Below, piece after piece: positions 24,835 to 61,400 of a DNA stretch of 64,000 nt (positions within the stretch are counted from its first letter, which is position 1; the number at the start of each line of letters is the position of its first letter). The translations under genes and the position numbers were made by a program. The notes beneath the pieces were generated by a model. It ran no database searches, was not told the origin of the DNA, and was given only the letters and a program-made list of their open reading frames with translations. This stretch comes from Rhodococcus marinonascens NBRC 14363 (GTDB lineage Bacteria; Actinomycetota; Actinomycetes; Mycobacteriales; Mycobacteriaceae). Location of the stretch: contig NZ_BCXB01000010.1 in NCBI RefSeq assembly GCF_001894885.1, positions 1 through 64,000 on the forward strand, written 5' to 3'.

Positions 24835-25446
24835 TCACAGCGGAAGCCCTCGTCCAAGCACTGCGAAAGGGCGGTTGTCGCCGCCGAATCGGAAGTGCCG
24901 CAGGACATCTCTGAAGCCGAGGCGCCGATAGAGCCGCCAGGCACGGTTGTCCTCGTCAGCGACCTCCGGCGTGGACAGCAGGACACCCCGCTCGGGTCTG
25001 TCTTCGAGGAGCCGTAGGAGCAGCGTCTCACCGAGTTGATGCCCCTGGGCATCGGGGTGGACGTGTAGTTCGGTGAGTTCGAAGTAGTTGGCGAGGAGTA
25101 CGTCGATCTGGTCCCGGCTCCACCCCGTGTGCCGCAGCCCCGAGCGGACCTGCTGGTGCCACCACTGTCCGGGAGCGCCGCTGTACCCGTAAGCGATGGC
25201 TACGAGGCGGGGTGGCGCGTCTTCAGGAGATCCGTCTCCGACCGGGACGAGCGCGGCGACGGCGCGCCACCCCGAGCGCCGAAGATGCTCACTCCACATA
25301 GGCGCCCGGTGATACTCGGTGCCGTGGGGGTAGCCCATGGCGGCGACGTAGACCGACAGCGCCTCGTGCAGGCGGTCGCGGAACTCGGCGGCCGAGAGTT
25401 CAACCACCAGTGGGGTCTGGTCAGCGTGCGTGTCTACCGGTCTCAC
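24835..25446 (-). CDS. GNAT-family acetyltransferase (Rv2170-like)
   Basis: 203 residues. The acetyl-CoA-binding segment is LTELHVHPDAQGHQLGETLLLRLL and the later NRAWRLYRRLGFRDVLRHF is the usual GNAT C-terminal helix. It corresponds in position to Rv2170. Start GTG 25446 has an AGAAAGG sequence directly upstream, so spacing is poor and the start is provisional. A TATAGC -10-like element and a perfect SOS box lie 30-60 bp upstream, shared with the divergent HEPN gene. DNA-damage control is therefore plausible. Substrate unknown. Confidence 0.82.
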   Translation of the reverse strand: MRPVDTHADQTPLVVELSAAEFRDRLHEALSVYVAAMGYPHGTEYHRAPMWSEHLRRSGWRAVAALVPVGDGSPEDAPPRLVAIAYGYSGAPGQWWHQQVRSGLRHTGWSRDQIDVLLANYFELTELHVHPDAQGHQLGETLLLRLLEDRPERGVLLSTPEVADEDNRAWRLYRRLGFRDVLRHFRFGGDNRPFAVLGRGLPL

Positions 25447-25491
25447 CTTTCTGTTGACGACGTGTCGGTGGGTCCAGCTATATTGAATAGA

Positions 25492-25507
25492 TCGAACTGA
25501 TGTTCGA
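25492..25507. promoter_or_regulatory. SOS box (LexA operator) between the GNAT and HEPN genes
   Basis: TCGAACTGATGTTCGA matches the actinobacterial LexA consensus TCGAAC-N4-GTTCGA exactly; flanking bases extend the dyad to 7 bp per arm. It sits between the -10-like elements TATAGC (minus, 25482-25477) and TATAGG (plus, 25508-25513), where LexA would block both promoters. I saw no other match in the window. Confidence 0.85.
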
Positions 25508-25626
25508 TATAGGGGATCCGGCGATGCTCGAGGGAAGCGAGCACCACTGGACCCCCGACCTAGCACGAATTCAAAGGTCTGACTATGCCCGGCGGGGTGT
25601 TGCACCGGGGTTGGGAGGTGTTCGAA

Positions 25627-26094
25627 GTGTCGACGAACTCGGTCGCAGGACCGAACTCTGGGGATTCCCGTCGACCGGGAATCGTGCGCGACCCGGCGTC
25701 CAGGCGAGGGTCGGTGCTGCTCGATCGCGCCGACGCCCTCCTGTCGCAATCGGTGGGAGCGGGCGCGCCGGCAGACCGATTCCACAGCGCATATCTGGCT
25801 GCACTGAGAGGGGCGGGTGCGGTGTTGGCCACCGCTGAGCGGACGTCGTCGGGCAATCGAAGGACACGAACGCGTAACGCCTGGGTTCTCTTGGCCCATG
25901 CCGCGCCGGATTTGGCGAGCTGGGCCGACTACTTCGCCAGTCACTCGGCCACCCGTGCGGCAATCGAAGCCGGTATGTCGCGGATCTTGACCGATTGGGA
26001 GGCCGACGAGTTCTTCGTCGAGGTCGGGCGCTTCCTGCAGGCTGTCGAAGATCGCATCGGACATGACGCAGGTCTCGATTTGCGGGCGTCTTAG
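25627..26094 (+). CDS. SAV_6107-family HEPN-domain protein
   Basis: 155 residues, all helical in appearance: RGSVLLDRADALLSQSVGA, RFHSAYLAALRGAGAVLATAE, NAWVLLAHAAPDLASWADYFASHSA and a C-terminal helix EVGRFLQAVEDRIGHD. This is the actinobacterial SAV_6107 HEPN family. No clean R-x4-6-H ribonuclease motif is visible (R83 and H91 are seven residues apart), so nuclease activity is uncertain. GTG 25627 has GGGAGG eight bases upstream and is preferred over ATG 25585. The shared upstream region carries a perfect SOS box. Confidence 0.75.
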   Translation: MSTNSVAGPNSGDSRRPGIVRDPASRRGSVLLDRADALLSQSVGAGAPADRFHSAYLAALRGAGAVLATAERTSSGNRRTRTRNAWVLLAHAAPDLASWADYFASHSATRAAIEAGMSRILTDWEADEFFVEVGRFLQAVEDRIGHDAGLDLRAS

Positions 26095-26330: not shown

Positions 26331-26780
26331 GTGCCACTCTCCGAGCACGAGCAGCGAATGCTCGACCAGATCGAGAGCGCTCTCTACGCCGAGGATCCCA
26401 AATTCGCCTCGACGGTCCGAGGTGGTCGCATACGTGCGGCGTCGAGTCGTCGCCGAGTGCAAGCTATTGCCCTGTTCGTTCTTGGGCTCGTCCTGCTCGT
26501 CGCCGGCGTTGCCCTGCCGATCACCCGGCTGGGTGATTTTCCAATCCTCAGCCTGATCGGTTTCATCGTCATGTTCGGTGCCGGAATTCTGCTCCTATGG
26601 GGTGGAGATAAGAGCAAGTCCGGACAGGAATCTCAAGATGACTCGACCTCGCAAGGTTCGACCGCACAACAAGGCGGGACAGGTGGGCCCGATCGAGGCA
26701 AGCCCCGAAGCGGCCGCAAGAGTGGCGGATTCTCGTCACGAATGGAAGACCGCTTCAAAAAGAGATTCGACCAAGAGTAG
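26331..26780 (+). CDS. DUF3040 membrane protein (Rv2169c-like)
   Basis: 149 residues. The family signature MPLSEHEQRMLDQIESALYAEDPKFAS opens the protein, followed by two membrane helices (about 43-62 and 70-90) and a hydrophilic Ser/Gln/Gly-rich tail ending in basic residues. GTG 26331 has a GGGGGAGG ribosome site. DUF3040 proteins commonly precede mraZ in Mycobacteriales. Their function is unknown; an envelope or division role is guessed only from position. Confidence 0.85.
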   Translation: MPLSEHEQRMLDQIESALYAEDPKFASTVRGGRIRAASSRRRVQAIALFVLGLVLLVAGVALPITRLGDFPILSLIGFIVMFGAGILLLWGGDKSKSGQESQDDSTSQGSTAQQGGTGGPDRGKPRSGRKSGGFSSRMEDRFKKRFDQE

Positions 26781-27270: not shown

Positions 27271-27702
27271 GTGTTTCTCGGTACTTACACGCCCAAGCTC
27301 GACGACAAGGGGCGGCTCACATTGCCTGCGAAGTTCCGGGATGCACTGGCGGGAGGGTTGATGGTCACCAAGGGTCAGGATCACAGCCTCGCGGTGTATC
27401 CCCGAGAAGAGTTCGCCGGCCTTGCTCGCAAGGCCGCGGCAGCGTCGAGAAGCGATGCGGAAGCGCGGGCATTCGTTCGCGGACTGGCAGCGGGCACCGA
27501 CGAGCAGCATGCAGATGCCCAGGGGCGCATCACCCTCTCGGCAGATCACCGTCGCTACGCGGGTCTCTCCAAGGACTGCGTAGTGATTGGTTCGGTCGAT
27601 TTCCTCGAAATCTGGGATGCACGATCCTGGCGGACCTACGTCGAGGAGAACGAGGAGAGCTACTCGCAGGCAACAGGAGTCGCGCTGGGCGAGATCGTAT
27701 GA
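27271..27702 (+). CDS. mraZ: Transcriptional regulator MraZ
   Basis: 143 residues, the usual length, with two SpoVT/AbrB-like halves. [23 protein letters not shown] opens the first DxxGR motif and [13 protein letters not shown] gives the second. It represses the division/cell-wall operon through TGGGN repeats, which occur upstream here. GTG 27271 has GGGAGG 8-13 bp before it. Its stop (TGA 27700-27702) overlaps an ATG at 27699 that opens the frame-split stretch before rsmH. Confidence 0.95.
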
Positions 27703-27835
27703 GCCTGATCTCGAGTGCCGCGAGGCCTCTGTCCGACGGAACCCTGACGCACTTCCCCAGCGCCAGGTTTCCTTCTCGGACAGGGACCTCGAGGCATTCG
27801 CTAAGGCAGCCGGCCGACAAAGGAAGTTCAAGTAG
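27699..27835 (+). pseudogene. Frame-split short ORF between mraZ and rsmH
   Basis: An ATG at 27699 overlaps the mraZ stop and reads MSLISS...GTLTHFPSARF up to about 27770. The same coding character continues one base back in the next frame ([21 protein letters not shown]) to a TAG at 27833-27835 that overlaps the rsmH GTG (TAGTG). With a -1 shift near 27766-27772 the joined peptide would be about 46 residues. From memory, the annotated N-terminus of M. tuberculosis Rv2165c has a similar LAYFPNARFVSSDRDL. It may be a coupled leader peptide, a frameshifted remnant or a sequence error. Confidence 0.4.
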
Positions 27836-51353: not shown

Positions 51354-51384
51354 TCTGTCGGACCGGGCGGGTAATTTGCACCAG

Positions 51385-52734
51385 GTGAGTCGACGGTGGG
51401 TCCTGCATCTCGATATGGACGCGTTCTTCGCGTCGGTCGAGCAACTCACCCGGCCGACGCTTCGTGGCCGCCCGGTCTTGGTCGGCGGTCTCGGCGGACG
51501 CGGAGTCGTCGCCGGGGCCAGCTACGAGGCGCGCATATTCGGCGCGTGCTCGGCAATGCCGATGCATCAGGCGCGGCGACTCGTGGGTCCCGGTGCTGTC
51601 GTGTTGCCGCCCCGTGGCCGACTCTATGGCTTGTTGAGCAAGTCCGTGTTCGACGCACTCCGCGGCCCGATGCCGGTGCTCGAGCAACTGTCGATGGACG
51701 AGGCCTTCGGCGAACCCACCGAACTGGCCGGGACGGATGCTTCTACGGTGCAACGCTATTGCGAGGGCCTGCGCGCCCTCGTTCTCGAGGAGACGGGACT
51801 GATCGCCTCGATCGGTGCCGGGTCGGGGAAGCAGGCGGCCAAGATCGCCTCGGGCCTGGCCAAGCCGAATGGGATCACGGTGATTCCACCGGCCGAACAA
51901 CGTGCGCTGTTGGACGGACTGCCGGTGCGCAAACTGTGGGGCATCGGCCCGGTCGCGGAGGAGAAGCTGAAACGGCTCGGCATCGAGACGATCGGAGGCT
52001 TCGCCCGCACCTCGGAATCGGAAGTGGCCTCCATCCTGGGCACGACGATCGGACCCGGACTGCACCGACTGGCGCGGGGGATCGACAACCGTCCGGTGGC
52101 CGAGCGTGCGGAGTCCAAACAGGTCAGTGCCGAGACCACCTTCGCCACCGACATCGTCACGCTGGGGGAGTTGCGCGGAGCGGTCGAATCGAGCGCGGCG
52201 GCGGCCTTCGCGCGACTGCACAGGGACGGCAGGGCGGCCCGGACCGTGGTGCTGAAACTGAGGAAGGCCGACATGAGTATCGTGACGCGATCCGTGACGC
52301 TGCCGTATGCCACCCTCGACCGTCAGATCCTGGTTGCCGCCGCGCAGCGTCAGGTGATCGACCCGATCGAACTCGGACCGGTGCGACTGGTCGGCGTAGG
52401 GTTCGCCGGTCTGTCGACTGTGCGCCAGGGCTCACTGTTCCCGGAGTTGGAACTGGACGTCCCCGGCTACGAGGAATCGAGAATCCAGGACGGGGGCGGC
52501 GGCGACCACGTGGCTCGCACCGCGCCGGCACCGGCTCACGAAATCGACGGTCGGTGGTATCCCGGTCTCGACGTGATGCACCAGGACTTCGGTCACGGTT
52601 GGGTGCAGGGCGCCGGACACGGGGTCGTGACGGTGCGATTCGAAACGCGCACAACGGGGTCGGGGATCGCTCGGACGTTCAACCAGGACGAGGAGCAGCT
52701 CCAACGGGCTGATATGGAAGGGTCGCTCGAGTGA
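51385..52734 (+). CDS. dinB: DNA polymerase IV (DinB/DinX, Y family)
   Basis: 449 residues. [15 protein letters not shown] and LSMDEAF supply the catalytic acids, and [15 protein letters not shown] is the fingers/palm block. A beta-clamp motif, QGSLFP, occurs near residue 350. A tail of about 95 residues follows, with [33 protein letters not shown] reading as a small beta domain. GTG 51385 follows TAATTT by seven bases, so it is probably leaderless. Translesion synthesis role from the family. No SOS box is seen upstream. Confidence 0.92.
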
Positions 52735-58347: not shown

Positions 58348-58449
58348 CTCCCGTCACGACTTCTCCGACACCGACCGTCGCCGAGAGGCGCTGTCGGTGA
58401 GAGGGCATACACTCGTGACGCTCCCAGACCTTCAGAGAGGCGCACGCAC

Positions 58450-61400
58450 GTGGCTGACTCGTTCGTACATCTGCACAACCACACCGAATATTCGATGCTC
58501 GACGGCGCGGCCAAGGTTGGCGCCATGTTCGAAGAAGCGGAGCGACTGGGCATGTCGGCGGTGGGTATGACCGACCACGGCAACATGTACGGCGCCAGCG
58601 AGTTCTACAACGTGGCGAAGAAACAGGGCATCAAGCCGATCATCGGCATCGAGGCGTATGTCGCGCCCGAGTCGCGCTTCAACACCAAACGTGTGCTCTG
58701 GGGTGACCGCGGTCAGAAATCCGACGATGTCTCCGGTAGCGGTGCGTACACCCACATGACGATGGTCGCGGAGAACACCACCGGCCTGCGCAATCTGTTC
58801 AAGCTGTCCTCGCTCGCGTCGATCGAGGGGCAACTCGGCAAGTGGGCGCGGATGGACGAAGAGCTCATCGCTGCCAATCACGAGGGCATCATCGCCACAA
58901 CCGGATGCCCGTCCGGCGAGATCCAGACGCGTCTGCGCCTCGGGCACGACCGCGAGGCACTCGAGGCTGCAGCCAAGTGGCAGGAGATCTGGGGTAAGGA
59001 CAACTTCTTTCTCGAACTGATGGACCACGGTCTGTCGATCGAACGCCGGGTCCGCGAAGGGCTGCTCGAGATCAGCAAGAAGCTCGAGATTCCTCCGCTC
59101 GCGACCAACGACTGCCATTACGTCACCAAGGAAGCCGCGGAGAACCACGAGGCGCTGCTCTGCATCCAGACCGGTAAGACGCTGTCCGACCCCACTCGCT
59201 TCAAGTTCGACGGCGACGGCTACTTTCTCAAGTCCGCGGCGGAGATGCGTGAGCTCTGGGACGACCAGGTGCCCGGCGCCTGCGACAGCACCTTACTGAT
59301 CGCCGAGCGCGTCCAGCCGTACGACGAAGTGTGGGAACACCGCGACCGGATGCCGATCTTCCCCGTTCCAGAGGGCGAGACGCAGGACACCTGGCTCCGT
59401 AAGGAGGTGCTGAGCGGTCTCGACCGGCGGTTCCCCGACGGACCGCCGCAGGACTACCTGGCCCGCGCCGACTACGAGATCGGCGTCATCCTCGAAATGG
59501 GATTCCCCGCATACTTCCTCGTCGTGGGTGATCTCATCAACCACGCCCGCGACGTCGGCATCCGTGTCGGCCCCGGTCGCGGCTCGGCCGCCGGTTCGCT
59601 CGTCGCTTACGCGATGGGTATCACCAACATCGACCCCATCCCGCATGGTCTGCTCTTCGAGCGGTTCCTGAACCCCGAGCGCGTATCCATGCCCGATATC
59701 GATATCGACTTCGATGATCGTCGTCGCGGCGAGATGGTGCGCTACGCGACGGACAAGTGGGGGAGCGACCGCGTCGCCCAGGTCATCACGTTCGGCACCA
59801 TCAAGACGAAGGCCGCAATCAAGGACTCCGCCCGAGTGCAGTTCGGCCAGCCGGGGTTCGCGATCGCCGACCAGATCACGAAGGCGCTGCCACCGCCGAT
59901 CATGGCCAAGGACATCTCGGTGTCCGGCATCACCGACCCGGACCACGAACGCTACAAGGAAGCGGTGGAGGTTCGCGCCCTCATCGACTCCAATCCGGAC
60001 GTCGCGAAGATCTACCAGACGGCCAAGGGCCTCGAAGGCCTGATCCGAAACGCCGGCGTCCACGCCTGCGCGGTGATCATGTCGTCCGAGCCGCTGATGG
60101 ACGCCATACCCGTGTGGAAGCGTGCCCAGGACGGTGCCATCATCACCGGCTGGGACTACCCGTCGTGCGAGGCCATCGGCCTGCTCAAGATGGACTTCCT
60201 CGGACTGCGGAACCTCACCGTCATCGGTGACGCCATCGACAACATCAAGGCCAACCGCGGTATTGATCTGGATCTGGACACCCTCCCACTCGACGATCCG
60301 GCCACCTACGATCTGCTCTCGCGCGGTGACACACTCGGTGTATTCCAACTCGACGGCAGCGCCATGCGCGATCTGCTCCGCCGCATGCAACCCACCGGCT
60401 TCGAGGACATCGTCGCGGTGCTCGCGCTGTACCGGCCCGGCCCGATGGGGATGAACGCGCACAACGACTACGCCGACCGCAAGAACGGGCGGCAAGAGGT
60501 CAAACCCATTCACCCGGAGCTCGAGGAACCCCTGAAGGAGATTCTGGCCGACACGTATGGCCTGATCGTCTACCAAGAGCAGATCATGCAGATCGCGCAG
60601 AAGGTGGCCGGGTACTCTCTCGGACAGGCCGACATTCTTCGCCGAGCCATGGGTAAGAAGAAACTGTCCGTTCTGGAGGAGGCCTATGCCGGCTTCCGTG
60701 AGGGCATGCTCACCAACGAATTCTCCGAGCCGGCTATCAAAGCACTGTGGGACACCATCCTGCCGTTCGCCGGGTACGCGTTCAACAAGTCGCACGCCGC
60801 CGGGTACGGACTGGTTTCGTTCTGGACCGGGTACCTCAAGGCCAATTATCCGTCCGAGTACATGGCCGGACTGCTCACGTCGGTCGGTGACGACAAGGAC
60901 AAGGCTGCGATCTACCTGGCCGACTGCCGCAGGATGGGGATCATAGTGCTCCCGCCCGACGTCAACGAATCGGAGGTCGACTTCGCTTCCGTCGGCGAGG
61001 ACATCCGGTTCGGTATGGGTGCCGTCCGCAACGTCGGCGCCAACGTCGTGAGCTCGATCATCAAGGCGCGTAGGGAGAAGTCCAAGTTCGTTGACTTCTC
61101 CGACTACCTGGGCAAGATCGATGCCGCGGCGTGCTCCAAGAAGGTCACCGAATCCCTGATCAAGGCGGGCGGTTTCGACTCGCTGGGCCACCCGCGCAAG
61201 GGTCTCCTGCTGGTCCACGCAGACGCCATCGACGCGGTGATGGGCACCAAGAAGGCGGAGTCGATCGGTCAATTCGACCTGTTCGGTGGCGCCGACGCCG
61301 ACGAGTCGATCGCCTCAGTGTTCAACGTGAAGATTCCAGAGGAGGAGTGGGACTCGAAGCACCGGTTGGCGTTGGAGCGGGAAATGCTGGGACTCTATGT

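Follow-up and report, generated by a model that had tools for sequence, protein, structure and literature searches.

Which gene does an SOS box between two divergent genes serve, and what would the product of that gene do in a cell with damaged DNA? The question is raised by an intergenic region in the window, by which we mean the whole 64 kb stretch of Rhodococcus DNA that was analysed. A first-pass annotation had described a minus-strand GNAT gene (called Rv2170-type there) diverging from a plus-strand HEPN gene across a LexA operator, and this layout is correct. It had further proposed that the operator is shared by both genes and that the pair forms a damage-induced stress or defence module. 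The features on which our analysis rests are as follows.

24835..25447, minus strand: divergent GNAT acetyltransferase (Pfam Acetyltransf_1), probable GTG start at 25447
25463-25484, plus strand: putative PafBC / RecA-NDp promoter motif, TGTCGGTG-N8-TATATT, in which TATATT at 25479-25484 is the proposed -10 element
25492-25507, no strand: LexA operator (SOS box), TCGAACTGATGTTCGA, recognised by its exact consensus TCGAAC-N4-GTTCGA and by conservation
25515..25553, plus strand: 5'-leader stem-loop with the loop AGGGAAG, between the box and the HEPN start codon
25627..26094, plus strand: HEPN_SAV_6107 protein (Pfam PF18726), 155 aa from its GTG
26331..26780, plus strand: DUF3040 / SCO2097-family protein, the next gene downstream of HEPN

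The HEPN protein scores 108.6 bits against PF18726 and thus exceeds the curated cut-off of 27.2. In our reading of the sequence its likely start is the GTG at 25627, which is preceded by GGGAGG at 25613-25618 and has a start codon at the same place in several close relatives; an in-frame alternative, ATG 25585, lies upstream. Further along, mraZ of the cell-division cluster begins at 27271, near the HEPN locus in this genome. A known cis-regulatory element that lies upstream of the mraW gene, the mraW RNA, was also recognised at 27707-27809 (RF01746, 70.6 bits).

We consider it probable that LexA controls the HEPN gene through this box, that the promoter contains a PafBC motif as well, and that the protein most likely regulates translesion DNA synthesis or serves it as an adaptor. 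More tentatively, and as a possibility that we hold at somewhat under even chances, HEPN_SAV_6107 may be an unrecognised translesion accessory of the whole class, encoded first or second in SOS polymerase operons behind a composite PafBC/LexA promoter that works as an AND gate.

The SOS box in its own genome

The box at 25492-25507 is, as the first-pass annotation had stated, the sole exact match to TCGAAC-N4-GTTCGA in the window, where sites with at most two mismatches number 12, compared with a mean of 4.84 in 100 shuffles. The 4.92 Mb genome holds two exact sites and none for a reversed-pattern control. The other exact box (L301, 11622-11637 on contig C53) falls, by our own reading, within a long open frame that precedes a ParA-like gene, in a region that is perhaps a plasmid or an integrated element.

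Sites with at most one mismatch number 54 in the whole genome, and besides the HEPN site we inspected 15 of them, in 14 stretches. Five of these 15 sit at SOS genes, and all five are one mismatch off the consensus. Two are found upstream of lexA (263.6 bits to the lexA model, contig C3) and one upstream of dnaE2 (1170.4 bits to the error-prone polymerase model); a fourth lies within the upstream part of the open frame of imuA' (NCBIfam ImuA' model), the exact start of which is ambiguous, and the fifth is just upstream of a gene read by eye as ruvC, behind which a ruvA-like gene follows. No recognisable SOS gene was seen at the other ten inspected sites. A one-mismatch box at L294 was set aside, as it lies inside a gene that we read by eye as sbcC. 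The five SOS-gene boxes indicate that this Rhodococcus genome uses the operator at other genes too, and the HEPN box is closer to the consensus than any of them. We regard it as very likely that the HEPN gene is under SOS control.

Conservation of the box upstream of HEPN

The HEPN protein is encoded in all 28 genomes of the genus. The first-pass annotation had suggested looking for the dyad in related genomes, and it is indeed present in these close relatives, being perfect before HEPN at 26 of the 28 loci and matching at 11 of 12 positions at one more; the locus that misses it is metagenome-derived, and its intergenic gap is almost gone. A further set from the same order comprised 29 loci of one other family and one of a second; 29 of these 30 have perfect boxes, and the thirtieth begins where its contig does. 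In an additional 30, of which 24 belong to the own family and six to others, the highest-scoring site per locus reached 12/12 in 12, 11 in 8, 10 in 9 and 9 in 1. For 80 named loci we took the highest-scoring site in the 450 bp before the HEPN domain; the score was 12 in 22, 11 in 16, 10 in 36 and lower in 6. The 10/12 boxes come mostly from Nocardia and typically read TCGAAT-N4-GTTCGG. Four of the six low-scoring loci do contain a perfect site at another position, and in the three cases checked it precedes a HEPN gene whose front is longer; one of the remaining two has a collapsed gap and the other is cut by a contig end.

We extended the comparison to a class panel of 60 loci from 36 families, picked by us from the listed matches at one to four per family and searched over 1.05 kb upstream. 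The box is perfect in 49 and matches at 11/12 or better in 56, and the rest of these loci, 649,005 positions, contains one perfect site and five at 11/12 or better. As box scores for 31 of the 60 panel genomes were available beforehand, we also give the 29 newly scored ones separately: 24 have perfect boxes and 28 reach at least 11/12. The four panel loci below 11/12 are L276 and three of a Streptomyces-like family, in which 9 of 18 loci repeat a 10/12 site, CCGAAC-N4-GNNCGA, 273 to 293 bases before the HEPN domain. Four small genomes of another genus, probably Corynebacterium, also have weaker best sites (10-11/12). Across relatives the half-sites of the box are invariant and the four spacer bases vary. 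As a sequence element, the box is conserved far more widely than the first-pass annotation could see, and the predicted LexA operator, in a position suited to controlling HEPN, is kept across the class (49 of 60 panel loci perfect).

A second, putative damage-response element in the promoter

Upstream of the box lies a second element that the first-pass annotation overlooked, a putative motif of the damage activator PafBC. PafBC activates a RecA-independent damage response, and genes that carry both its motif and an SOS box are known, such as recA (PMC8223512). The motif is given as TGTCGG-N10-TAnnnT, and its orientation toward the gene is reported to matter for function (PMC8151990). PafC is encoded in the Rhodococcus genome (PF19187, 140.2 bits, contig C16).

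With a relaxed form of the motif, matches no more than 75 bp upstream of the box and directed toward HEPN were found in 70 of 74 named loci with a box of at least 10/12, and on the reverse strand in none of the 74. The strict form, TGTC[AG]GTG-N8-TAnnnT, occurs in 64 of 80 named loci. In the class panel, the relaxed motif is present in 19 of the 56 boxed loci (reverse strand, 0/56; random windows, 26/11,200) and, by the same test, absent in 37. Of the 19 panel motifs, 17 end 8-11 nt before the box; in Nocardia the distance is about 18 bases. In the window, seven bases separate the proposed -10 (TATATT) from the LexA box, which should therefore cover the transcription start. A search for a sigma-70 consensus promoter at 25400-25700 returned none, which carries little weight because just 0.1 was expected.

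The PafBC pattern has three matches in the window, compared with 0.28 expected, and three were reached in none of 100 shuffles. The second (51356-51377) stands directly before a DNA polymerase IV gene (669.6 bits; probable GTG at 51385), and the third (58392-58413) before dnaE1 (1507 bits; GTG at 58450). All three matches thus precede polymerase or polymerase-linked genes.

The HEPN gene looks like one that PafBC activates and LexA represses, with binding of both proteins at this promoter predicted from their motifs. In an undamaged cell, LexA would sit over the HEPN start site and block transcription. On damage, RecA-driven cleavage of LexA would free the start site, and PafBC, turned on by a separate signal, would help RNA polymerase at the promoter. 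The gene may need both damage signals together, in the manner of an AND gate.

A further candidate element lies in the leader, downstream of the box and before the start codon. In an alignment of 20 leaders, which were chosen for having the AGGGAAG element so that the pair counts hold solely for such leaders, 92.5% of cells are paired, compared with 28.5-45.3% in slid controls. Seven pairs have changed on both sides; shuffles average 3.4, and one in 500 was as high. The stem-loop with AGGGAAG is found in many Rhodococcus and near relatives, and the loop is absent at that place in a few relatives (e.g. L037-L039, L175 and L177). It has no Rfam match. In the window strain the stem is partly mismatched and its fold (z -1.42 relative to shuffles) is not stronger than many of these; the leader folds of two relatives reach z -2.88 and -3.13. 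Our guess is that the stem-loop acts at a step after transcription.

Translesion polymerase genes as neighbours

Together with the shared control, the gene neighbourhood of HEPN is the basis for the role that we propose. Across the class we recognised a recurring row that runs from the box through DUF6504 (PF20114, at part of the loci), HEPN, a DnaE-type polymerase or ImuA'-ImuB, and a methyltransferase to DNA polymerase IV and DUF3040. HEPN is often the first or second gene behind the SOS box, and the polymerase position is filled by a divergent DnaE, or by ImuA'-ImuB and once DnaE2. In 43 of the 60 panel loci, from 29 of the 36 families, a same-strand translesion gene occurs no more than 7.5 kb downstream, as counted with neighbour profiles built from loci examined before the panel. 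Eight of the 60 genomes were already known to us when the operon idea came up; among the other 52, a translesion neighbour is present in 37. The neighbours are DnaE-type in 17 loci, ImuA' or ImuB in 8 and DinB in 34 of the 60. DUF6504 is present in 27 of the 60, and DUF3040 follows downstream of HEPN in 36 of the 60, usually after dinB.

One locus, L283, carries in order DUF6504, HEPN, ImuA', ImuB and the error-prone DnaE2 (1527.1 bits, cut-off 939), and the NCBIfam ImuA' model recognises the ImuA' of that genome (read as L194). Two loci with DUF6504 and HEPN (L244, 3440-7144; L241, 3494-7594) encode, downstream of HEPN, a divergent DnaE with similar scores to the error-prone and replicative models, below the cut-off of each; it is perhaps the DnaE2B of a 2026 survey (PMC12926913). 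Proteins of DUF6504 lie between box and HEPN at L218 (1060-1431) and L223 (922-1311). We also considered whether DUF6504 is the stand-alone ImuB-C protein of that survey (PMC12926913), and set this aside as a look-alike only: profile comparison with small alignments gave a probability of 0.24% (E 0.25). Larger alignments of DUF6504 with the C-terminal part of ImuB gave a probability of 2-3% (E 0.005-0.03), a faint resemblance that lacks statistical support, and we left this as a lead.

In the window itself, no ImuA'-ImuB-DnaE2 cassette genes were found at the locus; dnaE2 and imuA'-imuB of this genome are on contig C2, away from HEPN. In the Rhodococcus line just HEPN, DUF3040 and mraZ remain, and HEPN stands beside the cell-division cluster because this is what remains of the row.

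The neighbourhood and the shared control together argue for a translesion accessory role. Co-transcription of HEPN with the polymerase genes is what their order would predict, and a small HEPN-family protein that lacks the RNase motif would act as a regulator or adaptor of translesion synthesis; we infer a part in lesion bypass, its biochemical role included, on these grounds. The mycobacterial mutasome works (PMC10421592), so that, if the sister genus without HEPN described below is Mycobacterium, HEPN is not essential to the mutasome.

Alternatively, the box may belong to the SOS response while HEPN does something else, such as a damage-induced arrest of growth or division, with the polymerases merely sharing its switch. 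The position of the locus next to mraZ would suit an effect on division, a polymerase neighbour was not detected in 14 of the 56 boxed panel loci, and the LexA regulon of Corynebacterium glutamicum does include a division suppressor, DivS (PMC5055667). However, the order of HEPN, polymerases and DUF3040 in many families accounts for the division-cluster neighbourhood, and HEPN keeps its box at loci where no DUF3040 or mraZ was detected nearby. We regard an arrest function as rather unlikely.

The HEPN protein and the RNase question

The first-pass annotation had thought of a stress or defence module, which would make HEPN a damage-induced RNase toxin or phage-defence protein; RNase activity is indeed ascribed to the majority of HEPN domains (PMC3710099). 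The window protein contains no R-x4-6-H string, the motif of HEPN RNases, and the SAV_6107 clade is tabulated without a conserved active site (PMC3710099). An R-x4-6-H string does occur somewhere in the domain in 9 of 23 members of one set (A1) and 13 of 35 of another (A2), several of them with RYATAH near the domain start, and so active forms may exist elsewhere. The PADLOC match of HEPN (PDC-M05B) is weak, at 21.5 bits and E 5.4e-5, and neither GNAT nor DUF3040 has a PADLOC match. A search by sequence for a relative of solved structure gave none (best E 0.23).

PF18726 occurs in 242 of 298 order-level and 198 of 296 class-level genomes, nearly always as a single copy. A phylum-wide draw gave it in 32 of 296 genomes, and outside the class the scores were weak. 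The single copy in nearly all carriers and polymerase genes as recurring neighbours speak against a toxin or defence protein, in favour of which stand the RNase activity ascribed to most HEPN domains, the weak PADLOC match and the motif-bearing members elsewhere. We have set the defence reading aside, since the RNase motif is missing and the defence match is weak, and consider it improbable.

Which of the two genes the box serves

The remaining question is whether the acetyltransferase gene could be the main target of a shared operator. Since the box is 45 bp away from the GNAT start and would be expected to overlap a GNAT promoter, LexA may also affect GNAT in Rhodococcus. However, a comparison within the family, with a sister genus that is probably Mycobacterium, points the other way. 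HEPN is present in none of 148 genomes of this genus, whereas the GNAT gene is kept in 26 of 26. In all 25 retrieved loci, the gap between GNAT and DUF3040 has no box (best score 6 to 9 of 12) and no PafBC motif on either strand. A genus that lacks both HEPN and the box is close to a natural deletion experiment, and it is on this comparison that we set aside GNAT as the main target.

The converse arrangement is seen in the Amycolatopsis and Kutzneria loci that we read, where the divergent neighbour is YbaK-like by our own reading, GNAT lies beyond it, and the box still stands before HEPN. Moreover, the PafBC motif is directed at HEPN only. By this comparison of loci, the box is linked to the HEPN gene and not to the acetyltransferase, and GNAT as its main target is very improbable. 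A chance match without function, which could point to the random occurrence of two-mismatch sites, is practically negligible, since the fixed position across the class together with a variable spacer argues against it.

The initial interpretation thus survives in part. A conserved LexA operator in a position to control the HEPN gene is well in line with our results, and the two further proposals are not supported. A damage module shared by GNAT and HEPN does not agree with a box that stays with HEPN beside a YbaK-like neighbour and is absent at the GNAT gene of the sister genus. A defence role does not agree with a protein that lacks R-x4-6-H, a clade tabulated without an active site (PMC3710099), translesion polymerases as recurring neighbours, and a weak PADLOC match.

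Implications

If the translesion reading is correct, HEPN_SAV_6107 would be a missing, testable component of how actinobacteria replicate damaged DNA and acquire mutations under stress. It would also give a first functional lead for PF18726, a family known by name alone. The promoter is a natural case in which the LexA and PafBC responses appear to meet at one start site, where the logic of their cooperation can be measured, and the absence of HEPN in the sister genus provides a ready comparison.

Comparison with known systems

The probable published counterpart is cg2381 of C. glutamicum, a member of the LexA regulon (Jochmann 2009, as cited in PMC5055667) that is induced by ciprofloxacin (M 3.86) and lies three locus tags from mraZ, cg2378 (PMC5055667). 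C. glutamicum has a PF18726 protein, which served as a control, and from this match and the gene order we infer that cg2381 is the HEPN gene. The statement of the first-pass annotation that neither gene was described as damage-inducible needs correction to this extent for HEPN, provided that this identity is right. Like the window gene, cg2381 is a LexA regulon member near mraZ; it differs in that its annotation is merely 'conserved hypothetical' and in that the probable Corynebacterium genomes have weaker sites (10-11/12). Among the literature matches listed, from a search outside which most subscription journals lay, none is seen to link PF18726 to translesion synthesis.

At the level of the operator, the CCGAAC-N4-GNNCGA site of the Streptomyces-like family fits the relaxed LexA motif of S. 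venezuelae, tCGAAC-N4-GNNCGa, save for the first base (PMC9380542). At the level of the protein, the window gene product belongs to the HEPN-M clade SAV_6107 (PF18726), whose row in the published table gives neither an association nor a function (PMC3710099).

The ImuA'-ImuB-DnaE2 mutasome and the DnaE2B modules resemble the HEPN row in combining error-prone DnaE genes with small partners in actinobacteria; the DnaE2B modules are described from, e.g., Arthrobacter and Tessaracoccus (PMC12926913). The likeness extends to a single locus, where one HEPN locus carries DUF6504, ImuA', ImuB and DnaE2 together; the difference is that the window's genome carries its mutasome genes apart from HEPN. The word HEPN is absent from the main text of that survey (PMC12926913) and of a report on the mycobacterial mutasome (PMC10421592).

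Finally, the HEPN promoter shares with mycobacterial PafBC / RecA-NDp promoters the motif TGTCGG-N10-TAnnnT, aimed at the gene (PMC8151990). It differs from these cases in joining both elements in one promoter at a near-fixed spacing and, unlike them, in serving a gene that the sister genus, probably Mycobacterium itself, does not have.
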